Assembly (NCBI RefSeq): GCF_002078355.1
Contig: NZ_CP015363.1
Coordinates: 682,001 to 746,000, forward strand
Reading direction: 5' to 3'
Source of the DNA: Ferroplasma acidiphilum
Lineage (GTDB): Archaea > Thermoplasmatota > Thermoplasmata > Thermoplasmatales > Thermoplasmataceae
DNA: 64,000 nt
Shown: positions 39,297 through 48,734 of the stretch, piece after piece
How the letters are laid out: every line of letters starts with the position of its first letter
Position numbering within the stretch: position 1 is the stretch's first letter
Translations under genes and position numbers: made by a program
Notes under the pieces: model-generated
The model's input: the letters and a program-made list of their open reading frames with translations, nothing else
The model's database searches: none
What the model was told of the DNA's origin: nothing

Positions 39297-39755
39297 ATGG
39301 CAGGCAAAAGAAAAGCTGTGTTTGTTGACAGGGATGGTACCCTGAATTATGATACAGGATATACACATAAATTATCTGACCTCAAAATTTACGATGATAT
39401 AATTCCTATTTTAAAAGAATATTATGATCAAAATTATATTATCATAGTGGTAACAAACCAATCGGGCATTGGCAGGGAGTATTATACAGTAGAAGACATG
39501 GAAGCGTTTAATAATAAACTGGCAGAGGAATTGATGAAATATGGCGTTAAAATAGAAGAGTTCTTTTATTGCCCGCACCTTCCCGATCAGGGATGTAAAT
39601 GCAGGAAACCTGGAACTGGAATGATAGAGGAAGCAGCAAAAAAATATAATATTGATATTAAAGACTCTGTTGTAATAGGAGACAGAAACAGTGTTGATGG
39701 AACGATGGCTAGAAAACTGGGGATAAAATTTATTAAAGTCCACGGATACGATTAA
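39297..39755 (+). CDS. HAD-IIIA phosphatase, D,D-heptose 1,7-bisphosphate phosphatase-like
   Basis: A 152-residue GmhB/histidinol-phosphatase-type HAD enzyme. The nucleophile and acid are D11 and D13 in FVDRDGTLN. VVTNQSGIGR gives motif II. The zinc-binding loop is FYCPHLPDQGCKCRKP (Cys-x-His then Cys-x-Cys), typical of GmhB. VIGDRNSVDG is motif IV. Together with the heptose 7-phosphate kinase at 57034 it would cover two steps toward GDP-D-glycero-D-manno-heptose. Histidinol phosphatase activity is an alternative. Its stop overlaps the convergent P-loop gene by four bases. Confidence 0.87.
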   Translation: MAGKRKAVFVDRDGTLNYDTGYTHKLSDLKIYDDIIPILKEYYDQNYIIIVVTNQSGIGREYYTVEDMEAFNNKLAEELMKYGVKIEEFFYCPHLPDQGCKCRKPGTGMIEEAAKKYNIDIKDSVVIGDRNSVDGTMARKLGIKFIKVHGYD

Positions 39756-41032
39756 TTTTTAATAATTTCAAATCCGTTCCCTTCACTCTCATTCGAGGCT
39801 TTAAGAATATAATCCGTGTAAAGCCTTAAAGCATCCTGGTTCCCATCCTTAAGGAATATTATGCCCATGCCATTGCTTCCAGCATCATAATACTTGAAAA
39901 AACTGCCCCATAATTCGTTTTCATAAGCCGGGACTCCACCGGGTGATAGGGGGACAATATCATTAGCTGAGTTAATCACTATCAATGGATTGCGAAGTGA
40001 TTCGGTTCCAGTAACTATTGCAGCCCATAGTTTAGAGGCAAGAGCAGCCGCATCAGCAGCTGAATCTACAATTCTCTGGTCATAATATTCCTGGCTGATA
40101 TCAAATCTTTTAATGCTGAAGCTGGAGTTTCCGTTTATGATACTTTTGAACGGGTCGAACTTCCCGGTATTCAGTATTGCTATTTCCCGGCCGGTTTTTT
40201 CTGCACCTGACATTATTTTTGCAGCCAGGCCAATTTTGCCGTCACCAGCAGGTCCAGTAATCAGTGTTGTTTTTTCTCCACTTGCTATAGCATTTATTGC
40301 TTCTGTCTTTGTATCCAGTATCATTCCAGTAGGTGATTCATCTCGCTGAAAATCTATAAATTCCTGTGCCGTCTGCTGTGGTGCTGCGAGTTTAGGCTCT
40401 TTCATGCTGTAATCCAGTTCCAGGAAATCTTCAATTTTTGCCTTATAGGTGTAAAGTATTTTTTTGTTTCCAACAAGAAGTGGTTTCCTGAAATTTCCGG
40501 AATACAGGCTATATTTTTTGCCTTTTATCTCTTTCCAGTTAATGTCAGCCCTGATGCAATCCTGAATCTTTCCAAGGATAACATTGTTTAAATCTTCATC
40601 AGGCTTTTTTTTCATATATTTGTCATTTCGCTGCATGAATATTATCTTCACGAGGTATTTATCTTCCTGGAGAACATACTGATCCTTATCCGGTTTCTGG
40701 TTGTAATACAGAAACCAGAACATCATGCCCTGCCCATCAGCAAGTTTTTCAATTACATCCCTTATGTTTGTAAATTCAACTCCTGTATCATAATAATCCT
40801 TTTCTTTTCTGCTTTCAGAAACAAAATAATGATTCATTACAGGCATAGCATCAATAGGGTCAAGTTCAACAGATTGTTTTATAAATGAATATCTGGTGTT
40901 TGTGTTTAAAAATATATGTATACGATTTTCTTTATTAAAATAGAATAGGCCAAATTTCTGCCCCATAATGCTATAGAGCTTCTTATTATACACAGAATCT
41001 GCAGAACCGTTAATTACTTCATACCATGCCAT
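39752..41032 (-). CDS. Unrecognised protein with a degenerate P-loop
   Basis: I do not recognise this 426-residue protein. Residues 1-210 are alpha/beta with aromatic-rich strands (GMMFWFLYYNQ at 102-112). Residues 220-420 look like an NTPase. A Walker-A-like loop GPAGDGKI (260-267) lacks the Ser/Thr after Lys. A strand LIVINSAND (350-358) stands where Walker B should be but lacks the usual D-E. The order of P-loop, a D-P strand (GKFDPF) and a late strand IIFLKDGNQD resembles HerA/VirB4-type ATPases, a weak resemblance. It is divergent from the Hsp70 gene, sharing 124 bp, which hints at a common process. Confidence 0.6.
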   Translation of the reverse strand: MAWYEVINGSADSVYNKKLYSIMGQKFGLFYFNKENRIHIFLNTNTRYSFIKQSVELDPIDAMPVMNHYFVSESRKEKDYYDTGVEFTNIRDVIEKLADGQGMMFWFLYYNQKPDKDQYVLQEDKYLVKIIFMQRNDKYMKKKPDEDLNNVILGKIQDCIRADINWKEIKGKKYSLYSGNFRKPLLVGNKKILYTYKAKIEDFLELDYSMKEPKLAAPQQTAQEFIDFQRDESPTGMILDTKTEAINAIASGEKTTLITGPAGDGKIGLAAKIMSGAEKTGREIAILNTGKFDPFKSIINGNSSFSIKRFDISQEYYDQRIVDSAADAAALASKLWAAIVTGTESLRNPLIVINSANDIVPLSPGGVPAYENELWGSFFKYYDAGSNGMGIIFLKDGNQDALRLYTDYILKASNESEGNGFEIIKN

Positions 41033-41156
41033 TTAAATGCACAGTACTTATAATATGTAATTGTACTTAAATTTTGTCATCCATCTGTCATACAACAATC
41101 TTTATAAAAGCATATATTATTAATCTCTATTTATGTATAATATAAAGGTGTTATAA
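41033..41156. promoter_or_regulatory. Shared divergent promoter region of the P-loop and Hsp70 genes
   Basis: A 124-bp region separates two divergent starts. A TATA-like TATTTATGTATAATAT (about 41128-41143) lies 15-30 bases before the Hsp70 ATG. On the other side ATTTAAATGC near 41030-41040 is close to the reverse start, with further A/T boxes near 41055. The short shared region allows coordinate control. Confidence 0.45.
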
Positions 41157-42854
41157 ATGTTTTCCATTGGAATTGACCTTGGCACCAGTAACACATCAGC
41201 CGCCGTAGCCCTTATTTCCGGGAGCGAATATAAAACTATTGCAATTCCTCTATCCGGTAAGAAAGCTGGAAGTTCCCTGAAAAGTTCTATAACATTTGGT
41301 GGGTCAGATATTATGTTTACCGGAACTGATGCAGATAAGATGCTCAAGAAATATTCAGGTGGAAACGTTTCCGGTTTTAAAACAAGAATGGGAAGTGAAT
41401 ACCTGTACCGTACCGGGGAAAAATTCCATTCACCTGTAGAACTGAGTGCAATTATTCTTGCAAGGGTCAAAAACATTGCTGAAGACTATATGCATGACAG
41501 GGTAAAGGATGCTGTAATAGCCGTACCGGCTTATTTCAACAATAATCAGAGAAATGCTACACGTGAAGCCGCATCAATAGCCGGAATAAAGGTAAAACAA
41601 TTTGTCAGTGAACCTGCTGCAGTAGCAATATCTTACTGGAATAGTGCATCAAAGACAGAGGCAAAAAATATACTGGTTTTTGATATGGGTTCAGGGACAA
41701 CAGATGTGAGTATTGTAAGGGCACAGGGGAAGGATTTCAGAGTTATTGCGACATCCGGAAACACAGGGCTCGGTGGTACCGATATGGATAGGCGTATAGA
41801 GGAAATGATGAAATCTTTTCTCCGGACTAATGGTATATCCCCATATCCTCCAGACCTTAGAAAAGAGGCAGAAAAATTGAAAATTTACCTCTCAAATCAT
41901 GAAGCAGGGGATTCACTGTTAGGGAGTACAAAAATTAAATATACTATGGATTCAAAACAGCTTGATAGCATAGTATCTGATATGTTGCCTGAAATTTATA
42001 GATGCATAGATATGGCTATATTGAATTCAGGCATAAAGAGAAATGAACTGGACACAGTTATAATTACAGGAGGCCCTACTAAAATTCCTTTTTTATTTCA
42101 TTCCATTGAAAACTATCTTTCTACCAGGGCAGTAAAACACGGAAAGTTTGACACAGCTGTGTCTACCGGAGCTGCAATACTAGCCTCAGGATTTATACGC
42201 ATGGGTACAGGTGAAATATCTAAAATTAAGGTTAGTGATGTTGTGCCCATATCGCTGGGCAGTGTCACACGCAACGATATTGTAGTTACCATGATACCTG
42301 CAAATACGCCGGTACCCTGCAAAGCAACAAGGCCCTTTACTACGATAAGGGACTACCAGAGCGAAATAGAGGTAAAGGTAGTCCAGGGCGAACGGCCACT
42401 TGGCACAGATAATATTGTGCTAGGGCATTTTACACTTTCAGGCATAAAACCGGCACCCAGGGGGGAAGTTGCTATTGATGTGACATACAGTGTTGATAAA
42501 AATGGCATACTGACGGTATCAGCAAAGGACAATGACACCGGTGCAATAAAAGAGATTAAGATAAGTGAGACTATGCAGCACAGCCAGGAAGAAATAAAAG
42601 AAATGAAGGAAGCGGTAAAGAAATATTTTAAAGTAGATGCAGAGCGGAAGAAGATGGCAGAAATTATGAACAGATCAGAGCAGCTTCTGCACGAATTGAA
42701 AGGCATAGCAAATAAGCAGCTTTTATCTGAAACAAAATATTACAATATCAATACAGATATATTAATGGTAAGCAGGGCAATTAAAAATAATAATGTTAAA
42801 CTCTTATCCCAGTTATTGGCAAAAATGGATAAAGAATATTCTTTGAAAATTTAA
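41157..42854 (+). CDS. Hsp70/DnaK-family protein, stand-alone paralogue
   Basis: A 565-residue Hsp70. Phosphate 1 is GIDLGTSNTSAAV (5-17), the connect and phosphate 2 region is VFDMGSGTTDVSIV, and the adenosine motif is VIITGGPTKIP. The interdomain region reads SDVVPISLGSV, followed by a beta-sandwich substrate domain (VVQGERPLGTDNIVLGHFTLSGI, about 400-422) and a short helical lid ending near 560. The acidic DVLLLD-type linker is absent or changed, and the nucleotide domain is shorter than DnaK's (600-640 total). No dnaJ or grpE is adjacent, unlike the usual grpE-dnaK-dnaJ group. It is divergent from a P-loop-like gene. Confidence 0.92.
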   Translation: MFSIGIDLGTSNTSAAVALISGSEYKTIAIPLSGKKAGSSLKSSITFGGSDIMFTGTDADKMLKKYSGGNVSGFKTRMGSEYLYRTGEKFHSPVELSAIILARVKNIAEDYMHDRVKDAVIAVPAYFNNNQRNATREAASIAGIKVKQFVSEPAAVAISYWNSASKTEAKNILVFDMGSGTTDVSIVRAQGKDFRVIATSGNTGLGGTDMDRRIEEMMKSFLRTNGISPYPPDLRKEAEKLKIYLSNHEAGDSLLGSTKIKYTMDSKQLDSIVSDMLPEIYRCIDMAILNSGIKRNELDTVIITGGPTKIPFLFHSIENYLSTRAVKHGKFDTAVSTGAAILASGFIRMGTGEISKIKVSDVVPISLGSVTRNDIVVTMIPANTPVPCKATRPFTTIRDYQSEIEVKVVQGERPLGTDNIVLGHFTLSGIKPAPRGEVAIDVTYSVDKNGILTVSAKDNDTGAIKEIKISETMQHSQEEIKEMKEAVKKYFKVDAERKKMAEIMNRSEQLLHELKGIANKQLLSETKYYNINTDILMVSRAIKNNNVKLLSQLLAKMDKEYSLKI

Positions 42855-45732: not shown

Positions 45733-47223
45733 TTATCTAAATATTTTCCTGTATAAATCCATTCCATAACCAGTTATTGACGGGCTCCCCTCAACTATTC
45801 TATAGGTATGTTCACCGTTATCCGCCCGTTCCGCTATTAAGAATACTGAACTCTCGTTATTCTGCTCCATCATTGCCGAAGCAAATTCAAAGAGATGTGA
45901 CACAAAGAATATTTTTATTCCACTTTCCAGCAAAGCCTTTGTGATTCCCATTGCAACTTCTGCACCTTCACGTGTGTTGGTAGATGAAAATGACTCATTA
46001 AACAGTATCAAACTATTTCTTCTAATGTGATCGGCAATAAGATTCATTGTTGACAATTCATCATCAAATTTTCCCCTTTCCATTGTTTTGTCCTCTTCAT
46101 GCTTGAAATGTGTAAATATACCGGAAACCACGCTTCCAGAATAGCTTTCAGCTGCAACAAACATTCCTGCCTGCATCATCAACTGTGCCTGCCCTATACT
46201 CCTCAAAAAGGTTGATTTTCCTCCACGATTGGTTCCTGTTATTACAAATAAATTCTTTCCATCTCCATCCAGGTTGTTAGGAACAATTTTAGAATTCGTA
46301 GTAAGCATGAGCCCCAGATCGTACAATCCTGAAAATTCAAGTGCAGTGCTTTCTGTTTCCTGAGGTTCAGGAAAACAGTATTGGCCGGATCTGGATTTTA
46401 AATGCTCCAGAAGGTTAATTGATGATATATAGAACCCAATTTCACACCTTAACTCTTTAAAAAATTCCATGCAATTCTGGGCAGACCTTTTCAAAACCAT
46501 TGCCGTTTTTTTCACACCCCTGTTCCTTATATCTGTTATTTCTTCTCCACCGCTAATATCCCGCTCTGGAAGTGTATATGTATAATGCTGCCCGATTTTA
46601 TCACCAACGATCTGTTTGATATTCTTTTTTCCCGTATCCGGTTTATGGAGTATGTAATCTTTCCCTTCGTTGCCCATTCCCAGAGATACGCTCATTGTTA
46701 TGCCGTCTTTAAACTGCAGCCTTTCAAGATTCTCCAGTATTGTTGCCATATACTCCGGGCCAAATGTATCAGATACAGTACTGTAAAATTTCTTTAATCC
46801 CGTAGATTTTGCTTCCCCAATCATATTGCCTATTATTTCCCTGATCTCAGCAATCTTTTCTGAAAACAGTTTTATTATTCCTATAGATATCTGCATGGAC
46901 AGTGAAGCGTTATCGCTGAACCAGAAAAATTGCTTCTGTGCCTCTGTTATGAATGAAACGGTGATGTTATATATTTTATCTGCGTAATCACGGTGTTCTA
47001 TAAAATCCTGCATTACCTGTTGCCTGTACTTTATATTTTCTATGGAATTCAGGCTATTGAGAATGAACGTGGTTGAATTTTTCAGGAGAAATTGATCGCC
47101 GGAAGACATTGCATTTAATATTGGATTTAACCCGAGGTCGCCTATTAGTGAATCGCTATTCCATGGCAAATCCTCTTTATATCTGTCAACTCCATCACTG
47201 TCAAGCAAATATGTTTTTATCAT
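45733..47223 (-). CDS. MutS-like ATPase, second of a tandem pair
   Basis: A 496-residue protein with a MutS core (lever/clamp-like helices, about residues 40-280) and a C-terminal MutS ATPase. Walker A is GTNRGGKST (330-338) and Walker B is LILFNE (405-410), with Asn where canonical MutS has Asp. SFSSTNTREGAE follows as signature helix and VSHLFE supplies the His. It has no N-terminal mismatch-recognition domain (no F-x-E) and no Smr nuclease. Its ATG overlaps the stop of the upstream paralogue as ATGA, so the two are translationally coupled and may form a heterodimer. Confidence 0.85.
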   Translation of the reverse strand: MIKTYLLDSDGVDRYKEDLPWNSDSLIGDLGLNPILNAMSSGDQFLLKNSTTFILNSLNSIENIKYRQQVMQDFIEHRDYADKIYNITVSFITEAQKQFFWFSDNASLSMQISIGIIKLFSEKIAEIREIIGNMIGEAKSTGLKKFYSTVSDTFGPEYMATILENLERLQFKDGITMSVSLGMGNEGKDYILHKPDTGKKNIKQIVGDKIGQHYTYTLPERDISGGEEITDIRNRGVKKTAMVLKRSAQNCMEFFKELRCEIGFYISSINLLEHLKSRSGQYCFPEPQETESTALEFSGLYDLGLMLTTNSKIVPNNLDGDGKNLFVITGTNRGGKSTFLRSIGQAQLMMQAGMFVAAESYSGSVVSGIFTHFKHEEDKTMERGKFDDELSTMNLIADHIRRNSLILFNESFSSTNTREGAEVAMGITKALLESGIKIFFVSHLFEFASAMMEQNNESSVFLIAERADNGEHTYRIVEGSPSITGYGMDLYRKIFR

Positions 47224-48734
47224 GATATCCTCCCCTTCAATATTTCATATGTAAGGTTATACTTCCTCGCAAGTGCCATTGCATATGCCATACCGTTAGA
47301 TTTCATTGGAAGAACCTTATATGTCCTTTTCTCCGGGTATTTCCTGTCAACCTGGCTTACGTAGCTAACCACTCCGGGCAAATCAGACAATTCATGAATA
47401 AAGGTGACATACATGCAAATAGATTTCATTTTCTTTATTTTATCTATTATATTCCTGCCTATTTCAATTCCATCCTTAAGCGTGGTTGAACTCAACATTT
47501 CATTAATAATAATGAGGCTCCTTTCCGTTGCCTTTTCAAGTATGCCATGTAATCTTTCCAGTTCCTCTTCAAGCCTGCCCATATTATTTTCTGGATTTTC
47601 AGATATTTCAAAATGTGAAAATATATTATCAACATGAAGTATAGTTGCCTCTTTCCCGGGAACCGGACAGCCCAGCAGGGCAAGATAATGTAACTGCCCG
47701 AATGACCTGGCAAATGTTGTTTTACCACCATTATTTGGCCCGGTAACTATAATCACGGATGAATTTCTATTTACAATAATATTGTTAGTAACAGGAATTT
47801 GCTTGCGTTCATTAAGTTTGGCAGCAAGTGCAAGATCAAAAAATTCCAGGCAATATATTCTATCCGTTTCACCTTTAATCTCCGGTATGCAGAACTGCAA
47901 TCCGGATTCCTCAAGTGGAGTTATATATTGTAAATACTTCAAATAAAAAAAGATTTCATGAAGAAATCTGGAAATTACAGGATCCATGAAATTTAACCTT
48001 CTTTTATAAAAGTCCTTTAATCTATTGAATTGCTCTGGATAGAATTTTGCCACCAGTTCCACTACAGCAGCTTCTACATGGCCAAAACCCGGAGTAGAAT
48101 CATATCCCGGGATTGTTTCATCCTCATCCAGGAACCTTGAAAATGCCTCTTTAACCTCAGATGCATAATCTTCTGAATCCCGGTCCTCCCTTACAGTTAT
48201 TTTCACGCCTTTGATATTTATGAGATATCTTATTGATGATAGTTCCTCCTCAAGTTGTTCTGCGTCATTTTTAAGTGATTTAAATTCATCCGAGGCAACA
48301 TAAGCATCCAGATAGTTTATGAACCCGGTGAACCCTCTTGATTTTGCTCCTGCTTTTCGCATATTGTCTAACATATTTTCAATTGATCGGGAATACATAT
48401 AAACGGAGTCCAGTAACCACCGTTCACGCTGCAGGTCATAAAGATCTTTTAACCTTTTGATATTATAAAATATCTGTGACCCTGTGCCAGCAAATTGTGT
48501 AATAATCCTGTATATCTCTGGATTTTCCAGGTCTTTAAAGATTTCCTGCCTGTAGAAAATGTCATCAATGTTCCTCAATGGCATGTAGAGGAGCCTTTCC
48601 AGTTCATCATTCCGGGTATTTCCCATGAATCCTGAAAAAATATTTCTCAAAGAAAAATCGTCAAATATTGTATTATTCCTGTCCAGCTCCTGCAGATTTA
48701 TGGAACTACTGAATGTTATGCTTTTAAACTCCAT
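47220..48734 (-). CDS. MutS-like ATPase, first of a tandem pair
   Basis: A 504-residue paralogue of the next gene. Residues 40-300 are largely helical and correspond to the MutS core, with a coiled segment near 155-170 (DAEQLEEELSSIR). The ATPase has Walker A GPNNGGKTT (332-340), Walker B LIIINE (407-412, again Asn-Glu), then MLSSTTLKDGIEIG and TFIHELSDL. There is no mismatch-binding domain. It starts at ATG 48732-48734 after an A/T-poor leader with a GGAG-like site (AAAAGGAGATGAG) and leads the two-gene operon. DNA or RNA structure binding is inferred from the family. Confidence 0.85.
   Translation of the reverse strand: MEFKSITFSSSINLQELDRNNTIFDDFSLRNIFSGFMGNTRNDELERLLYMPLRNIDDIFYRQEIFKDLENPEIYRIITQFAGTGSQIFYNIKRLKDLYDLQRERWLLDSVYMYSRSIENMLDNMRKAGAKSRGFTGFINYLDAYVASDEFKSLKNDAEQLEEELSSIRYLINIKGVKITVREDRDSEDYASEVKEAFSRFLDEDETIPGYDSTPGFGHVEAAVVELVAKFYPEQFNRLKDFYKRRLNFMDPVISRFLHEIFFYLKYLQYITPLEESGLQFCIPEIKGETDRIYCLEFFDLALAAKLNERKQIPVTNNIIVNRNSSVIIVTGPNNGGKTTFARSFGQLHYLALLGCPVPGKEATILHVDNIFSHFEISENPENNMGRLEEELERLHGILEKATERSLIIINEMLSSTTLKDGIEIGRNIIDKIKKMKSICMYVTFIHELSDLPGVVSYVSQVDRKYPEKRTYKVLPMKSNGMAYAMALARKYNLTYEILKGRIS

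Follow-up and report, generated by a model that had tools for sequence, protein, structure and literature searches.

What does a cell gain from a second Hsp70 whose gene stands head to head with that of an unfamiliar protein, and do the two products work together? This question is raised by a locus in a 64,000-nucleotide stretch of the Ferroplasma acidiphilum chromosome (contig NZ_CP015363.1, positions 682,001 to 746,000 of the forward strand; hereafter the window), in which a divergent Hsp70 gene adjoins a gene for a protein of 426 amino acids. An earlier note, made from the sequence alone, had suggested that the pair shares control and acts jointly, perhaps as a chaperone with its dedicated client or co-chaperone. 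Here, we found that a functional link between the two genes is well supported by comparative evidence. Strong support for joint action of the two proteins comes from the perfect co-occurrence of their genes, from divergent adjacency kept at different loci and from an invariant DNA element private to the locus. The two genes are as follows (positions are those of the window):

39752-41032, reverse strand: 426-amino-acid partner, with a TraG/VirD4-like N-domain and a RecA-fold C-domain whose Walker A motif is altered (tblastn E 6e-5 and reciprocal profile matches to TraG-like plasmid ATPases; AlphaFold and Foldseek for the C-domain)
41157-42854, forward strand: Hsp70 paralogue of 565 amino acids, the second Hsp70 of the genome (Pfam HSP70, E 6e-106), with intact ATPase residues and changed linker, peptide pocket and C-terminal tail

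Both open reading frames (ORFs) are complete, and the divergent arrangement across 124 bp described earlier was reproduced (41033-41156). The genome of this species (G000) is a single contig of 1,826,943 bp and carries a canonical grpE-dnaK-dnaJ operon elsewhere (dnaK at G000:C1:482589-484316); thus, the Hsp70 of the window is an additional, divergent copy, and the objection that it might be the only dnaK of the organism does not apply. The earlier note had also described a complete Hsp70 gene with no adjoining dnaJ or grpE and a product shorter than DnaK with a changed linker, all of which agreed with our comparison with Escherichia coli DnaK and with the position of the canonical operon. The pair is chromosomal, its neighbours encode an FkbM-like methyltransferase, a HAD phosphatase and bisphosphomevalonate decarboxylase, and conjugation genes are absent from its surroundings.

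The earlier note had suggested checking for side-by-side conservation in other Thermoplasmatales. Single-domain matches aside, the 426-amino-acid gene was detected in nine of 61 relatives searched (G000, G001, G002, G004-G008 and G025), and in each of these nine genomes a divergent-type Hsp70 gene directly adjoins it in opposite orientation. The same arrangement was found in Ferroplasma acidarmanus Fer1 (G100), whose 426-amino-acid protein shares 98% identity with the one in the window, and in two further Acidiplasma genomes (G220 and G255). The divergent pair was therefore present in 12 out of 12 genomes with the gene (nine Ferroplasma and three Acidiplasma), and the pairing is not unique to this genome. 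It should be noted that a contig end cuts the Hsp70 gene in G006 and that the 426-amino-acid gene of G001 is split over two frames. No genome among those examined had one gene of the pair but not the other, and no further full-length relative of the 426-amino-acid protein was found in 400 Thermoplasmata genomes, the named genome collection or the viral and phage collections. The pair is missing from one Ferroplasma metagenome-assembled genome (MAG), G003, whose assembly probably misses the region because the neighbouring bisphosphomevalonate decarboxylase gene is absent as well. The genes around the pair are syntenic among Ferroplasma genomes. The Acidiplasma pair occupies a different locus, next to genes for an amino acid permease and an AMP-binding enzyme, and the retained adjacency is informative because these neighbours differ. 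The 426-amino-acid proteins of the two genera are only 32% identical. No description of this pair was found in the open-licence papers searched, and the main text of an archaeal DnaK survey does not mention Ferroplasma (PMC3564930).

Both genes are functional and under purifying selection, since the ratio of non-synonymous to synonymous substitution rates (dN/dS) was about 0.03-0.1 for each in close species pairs. Between the window species and G005, identity was 58.6% for the Hsp70 paralogue, 68% for the 426-amino-acid protein and 93.6% for canonical DnaK. In the phylogenetic tree, the Hsp70 paralogues grouped in a single clade with 100/100 support and a long stem, and a second long branch led to the copies of the window, G001, G005 and G008b. 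The paralogue may stem from an old duplication or from a transfer, the tree tool having warned of long branches that meet. Two different Hsp70 paralogues were observed on two contigs of the G008 MAG (L056 on G008:C68 and L052 on G008:C51), one of them almost identical to the window copy; this MAG is probably a mixed bin.

The 426-amino-acid protein had been described as belonging to no known family, a view now superseded for its N-terminal half. Searches of Pfam, NCBIfam, PHROGs and PADLOC assigned no family, a sequence search of solved structures gave no match, and the matches to CLIC-like_N, nSTAND3 and Sigma54_activat (E 0.01-0.05) were weak and judged to be chance or a generic P-loop signal. 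A viral or phage origin was also discarded, as no relative occurred in viral_contigs or phages. However, tblastn matches among 72,556 plasmids were confined to Sulfolobus proteins with the annotation type IV secretion system DNA-binding or DUF87, one on pHGQ25 (residues 3-195, 26% identity, E 6e-5) and another on pRT2. When the G025 and G007 orthologues served as queries, the same Sulfolobus plasmids were matched together with pNOB8 and pHVE14, at weaker E-values. Two of the matched plasmid proteins carry the Pfam families TrwB_AAD_bind/HerA/TraG-D_C. The homologous region is:

40388-41032, reverse strand: N-domain (residues 1-215), with homology to the N-terminal part of TraG-like ATPases from Sulfolobus plasmids (hhalign probability 97, E 5e-11; profile searches and shuffles)

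A hidden Markov model (HMM) built from eight TraG-like N-domains recovered six orthologues at E 4e-14 to 5e-8, compared with 0.016 for the best of 1,200 shuffled sequences. The reciprocal search, with a profile against 61 family genomes, matched an N-domain in the 426-amino-acid family only (E about 1e-11). With four TraG-like sequences, hhalign gave a probability of 97.4 over residues 1-323, collinear through the P-loop, and with eight it gave 96.9 over residues 1-109. By these profile comparisons, homology of the N-domain to archaeal TraG/VirD4-like conjugation ATPases is firm, and collinear homology of the C-domain with them is likely but weaker. One plasmid of this kind, pTC, encodes its two conjugation ATPases in ORFs of ∼1019 and 621 amino acids; the longer one is listed in a table as VirD/TraG-like, and the text interchanges the two names in places (PMC4390865). 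Besides the pair, the Acidiplasma genome G255 encodes a 646-amino-acid protein with the same N-domain, beside a homologous glycosyltransferase and an 845-amino-acid protein (L085:7237-13319); this stretch shows synteny with the MoaC/nitrilase/MobA-like genes close to the pair in Ferroplasma.

Structure prediction of the 426-amino-acid protein alone, which the earlier note had recommended, modelled the C-domain well, with a RecA fold, and the N-domain poorly. Two AlphaFold runs gave low confidence for the N-domain (predicted local distance difference test score, pLDDT, 58 in one of them), with no Foldseek match at E <0.001. The C-domain and its nucleotide-binding motif are located as follows:

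39755-40315, reverse strand: C-domain (residues 240-426), P-loop fold of RecA/KaiC/FlaH type (pLDDT about 80-92 over most of it; best Foldseek E 8e-7)
40232-40255, reverse strand: altered Walker A motif GPAGDGKI (residues 260-267), in which alignments show GK kept and Ser/Thr replaced by Ile

The Foldseek matches, confined to the C-domain, were to RecA (E 8e-7) and to FlaH and KaiC (5e-6), all with probability 1.0; template modelling scores come out low when normalised to the full query, since the C-domain alone matches. All members of the family keep GK and have Ile or Leu in place of Ser/Thr, and two species lack three loop residues. G265, K266 and I267 are invariant in the A1 alignment, and the distant Acidiplasma G220 has GKL. 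With the Walker B DE also replaced (IVINSANDI), neither a functional Walker A (GxxxxGK[ST]) nor a Walker B DE is present. The loss in Walker A is derived, because a stand-alone relative in G058 keeps GLPGIGKT. The P-loop had earlier been called decayed; the motif is indeed altered (GxxGDGKI, with Ser/Thr lost), but its altered form is conserved across orthologues, and judged from these alignments the nucleotide site is constrained and altered rather than randomly decayed. DUF835 was considered by eye as a family for the C-domain and dropped, being absent from the Pfam scans. Stand-alone relatives of the C-domain were observed in G049 (L055:1761-4057) and G058 (L087:5096-7440), overlapping a membrane family-2 glycosyltransferase gene, one of them with an intact Walker A. 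Moreover, the last ∼200 residues of 900-amino-acid AAA_15 (OLD-like) proteins in G002 (L053:5521-8223) and G004 (L054:7959-10661) match the C-domain.

Conservation extends to the DNA between the two genes, where three features could be distinguished:

41064-41080, forward strand: invariant 17-mer TACTTAAATTTTGTCAT (ATGACAAAATTTAAGTA on the strand of the 426-amino-acid gene), identical in 11 of 11 aligned loci, once per genome and missing from the remaining 389 of the 400 Thermoplasmata genomes
41048-41054, forward strand: TTATAAT (TATAAT invariant), at a fixed 9 bp from the 17-mer
41087-41091, forward strand: a second copy of GTCAT, spaced by 11 bp (one helical turn) from the GTCAT at the end of the 17-mer

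Across the 11 loci, most of the intergenic region cannot be aligned, the exception being the block TATAAT-N9-TACTTAAATTTTGTCAT, which is identical in all. The second GTCAT is kept in most loci, reads GTCTT in two and is lost in two. Neighbouring promoters had at most 7 bp in common in four-genome comparisons. No site with one mismatch to the 17-mer occurred in the own genome, and a genome-wide regulon was ruled out, as there was one exact site and allowing up to three mismatches gave fewer sites than the reversed-pattern control. The element lies 27-33 bp from the start of the 426-amino-acid gene and 53-274 bp from that of the Hsp70 gene. Because its distance is fixed to the former start only, it should be a promoter or operator of the 426-amino-acid gene and not a symmetrical shared promoter. 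On the strand of the 426-amino-acid gene, ATGACAAAATTTAAGTA plausibly contains an archaeal TFB-recognition element (BRE) and TATA box; in most loci another ATGAC lies one helical turn before it, and the 17-mer would probably also act as an operator.

These features invite a regulatory explanation, in which the 426-amino-acid protein, or a complex containing it, binds its private operator as a repressor and Hsp70 senses stress or acts as co-repressor, as with HspR and DnaK. In favour of such autoregulation, the element is private to the locus and fixed relative to the 426-amino-acid start, and a direct repeat spaced by one turn lies immediately upstream of the putative BRE/TATA. On the other hand, family library scans recognised no DNA-binding domain in the protein, TraG N-domains are not known as transcription factors, and a host regulator could equally bind the element. 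We consider this explanation distinctly unlikely.

The Hsp70 paralogue itself was compared, in 11 copies, with E. coli DnaK. It clearly belongs to the Hsp70 superfamily, the HSP70 profile covering the nucleotide-binding and substrate-binding domains at 355 bits against a cut-off of 20.6 (E 6e-106), and the catalytic residues D8, T11, K70, E171, D194, T199, D201, P143 and R151 are invariant in all 11. However, its scores fell below the DnaK equivalog cut-offs (361 versus 822.6 bits for TIGR02350, and 362 versus 648). Two segments of the window copy differ from DnaK:

42225-42239, forward strand: interdomain linker, IKVSD in place of VLLLD
41598-41618, forward strand: Q148/S151/A154, where DnaK has its J-domain contacts R167/N170/T173

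None of the 11 paralogues has a hydrophobic linker of VLLLD type. The linker is more polar in all (I/V-x-[VFIL]-x-D) and preceded by a four-residue insertion, with K/R at position 390 in 10 of them. The peptide pocket is changed in all 11 (I401 to S/N, A429 to I/V and V436 to I), and none of them has the disordered acidic tail. As for the J-domain contacts, which include N170 and T173 besides R167, R167/N170 became Q/S in the window, Fer1, G001, G005 and G008b, and T173 became A only in the window and Fer1. In DnaK, R167 is a J-domain contact (PMC7289447), and linker mutations at L390-L392 lowered DnaJ affinity tenfold (PMC6843406). We also considered a second J-domain protein (G000:C1:1359178-1359885) as an obligate third component and rejected it: it occurs in all searched Ferroplasma, even in the genome from which the pair is missing, and in genus g12, which also lacks the pair, and no close relative was found in Acidiplasma G025. 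This protein (L152:973-1683) has 236 amino acids, a C-terminal J domain and an N-domain without assignment.

Such a linker raises the possibility that the paralogue is an Hsp110-like helper, acting as holdase or nucleotide-exchange factor for canonical DnaK, with the 426-amino-acid protein as an incidental or minor partner. The linkers KIKVSD and PIKFND do resemble EFSVTD and PFKFED of Hsp110 (PMC6843406), D393 is kept and the J-contacts are altered. Nevertheless, GrpE already adjoins canonical dnaK, the paralogue does not reach the length of DnaK and has no acidic insertions in its substrate-binding domain, and its strict association with the 426-amino-acid gene would be left unexplained, so that a helper of this type appears rather improbable. 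Still less probable, in our view, is that these are ordinary neighbours, two lineage-specific genes with a common intergenic region, no functional link and slow rearrangement. Synteny of the Ferroplasma loci means that adjacency there is not independent, but the Acidiplasma pair lies in a different neighbourhood and no examined genome has only one of the genes, at 32-43% protein identity. Finally, plasmid exclusion, whereby a 426-amino-acid decoy would co-assemble with and poison an incoming TraG-like hexamer and Hsp70 would recycle the complexes, agrees with homology to a conjugation ATPase with a degenerate motor and with fixation across two genera, but is highly improbable given no defence-island context, no PADLOC match for the protein and no conjugative element with such a TraG in the family (N-domain profile matches were to the 426-amino-acid family only).

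The reading we prefer, at about even chances, is that a specialised Hsp70 has its dedicated partner, either a client or an adaptor, in a pseudo-ATPase of conjugation type that has been domesticated. The two would form a module in which an ATPase-competent Hsp70 has turned specialist and, in the lineage of the window, has probably escaped control by ordinary J-proteins. Its partner would be a TraG/VirD4-like ATPase that has lost its hydrolysis-competent Walker A and C-terminal motor part, and whose RecA-fold domain most likely serves assembly or nucleotide binding without turnover. Hsp70 would hold or remodel this obligate client or adaptor in ATP-driven cycles, and the private operator before the partner gene would set the dose of the pair. 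Physical interaction, the direction of action and autoregulation are what we infer here. A stronger version, a J-independent Hsp70 machine of acidophilic Thermoplasmatales only, with a RecA-fold pseudo-ATPase from a domesticated conjugation motor as activator or client, seems to us unlikely. Several points weigh against these proposals. R-N-T is kept in G002, G007 and all Acidiplasma copies (G004 has T-N-T), so J-independence cannot be general. Adjacency and shared inheritance are no proof of contact, and the poor N-domain model (pLDDT 58) means that no interface can be proposed. A conserved promoter is also not special to the pair locus, since the grpE promoter has a conserved 30-bp block of different sequence. 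That block, TTATATAGAAAATATTTATATAGAAGAACA (L001, upstream of grpE, 970), is invariant in the window genome, G005 and G025 (two Ferroplasma and one Acidiplasma) and is a candidate heat-shock promoter for Thermoplasmatales.

Hsp70 activity is generally held to need J-proteins. With J-contacts lost in some species and kept in their sisters, under purifying selection and with one partner, the locus offers a natural experiment on Hsp70 rewiring. If the preferred reading is true, extreme acidophiles without a cell wall have domesticated a conjugation ATPase as part of a chaperone module, and the module is testable because F. acidarmanus Fer1, a named strain with a complete genome, carries the pair.

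Two observations concern the surroundings. Directly after the Hsp70 gene, three species have a secreted-looking protein of ∼1170 amino acids with a C-terminal membrane anchor (L047:11626-15135, L048:11533-15057 and L049:4973-8455); it has no Pfam family, and a 740-amino-acid homologue lies near the pair in G005. In the window, two overlapping ORFs of 496 and 504 amino acids (45733-48734, reverse strand) look by eye like tandem MutS-type ATPases.

Among known systems, canonical DnaK shares with the paralogue the domain order, all ATPase residues and 35% identity over the length, whereas the paralogue has no grpE or dnaJ neighbours, a polar linker, pocket changes and no acidic tail, and is shorter. 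Hsp110/Grp170 have the same divergent polar linker type with D393 kept (PMC6843406); unlike them, the paralogue, at 565 amino acids, has no acidic insertions in the substrate-binding domain or lid, is archaeal and occurs in a genome with GrpE. HscA/HscC are alike in concept, as dedicated Hsp70 proteins with altered client range, but the paralogue scored 326 bits against the HscA cut-off of 709, and neither HscB nor iron-sulphur genes adjoin it. With KaiC/RecA/FlaH proteins, the C-domain of the partner has the fold in common and no significant sequence family match. The TraG/VirD4-like ATPases of Sulfolobus plasmids (pNOB8, pHVE14, pTC, pAH1, pMGB1 and pSOG1) share the N-domain (residues 3-195 of P0001 to 8-198 of pHGQ25 TraG) and a collinear P-loop position. 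In contrast with these proteins of about 1020-1090 amino acids, the partner has only 426, lacks the Walker A Ser/Thr and any recognisable HerA-type motor and C-terminal parts, and is encoded on the chromosome with no conjugation genes nearby.

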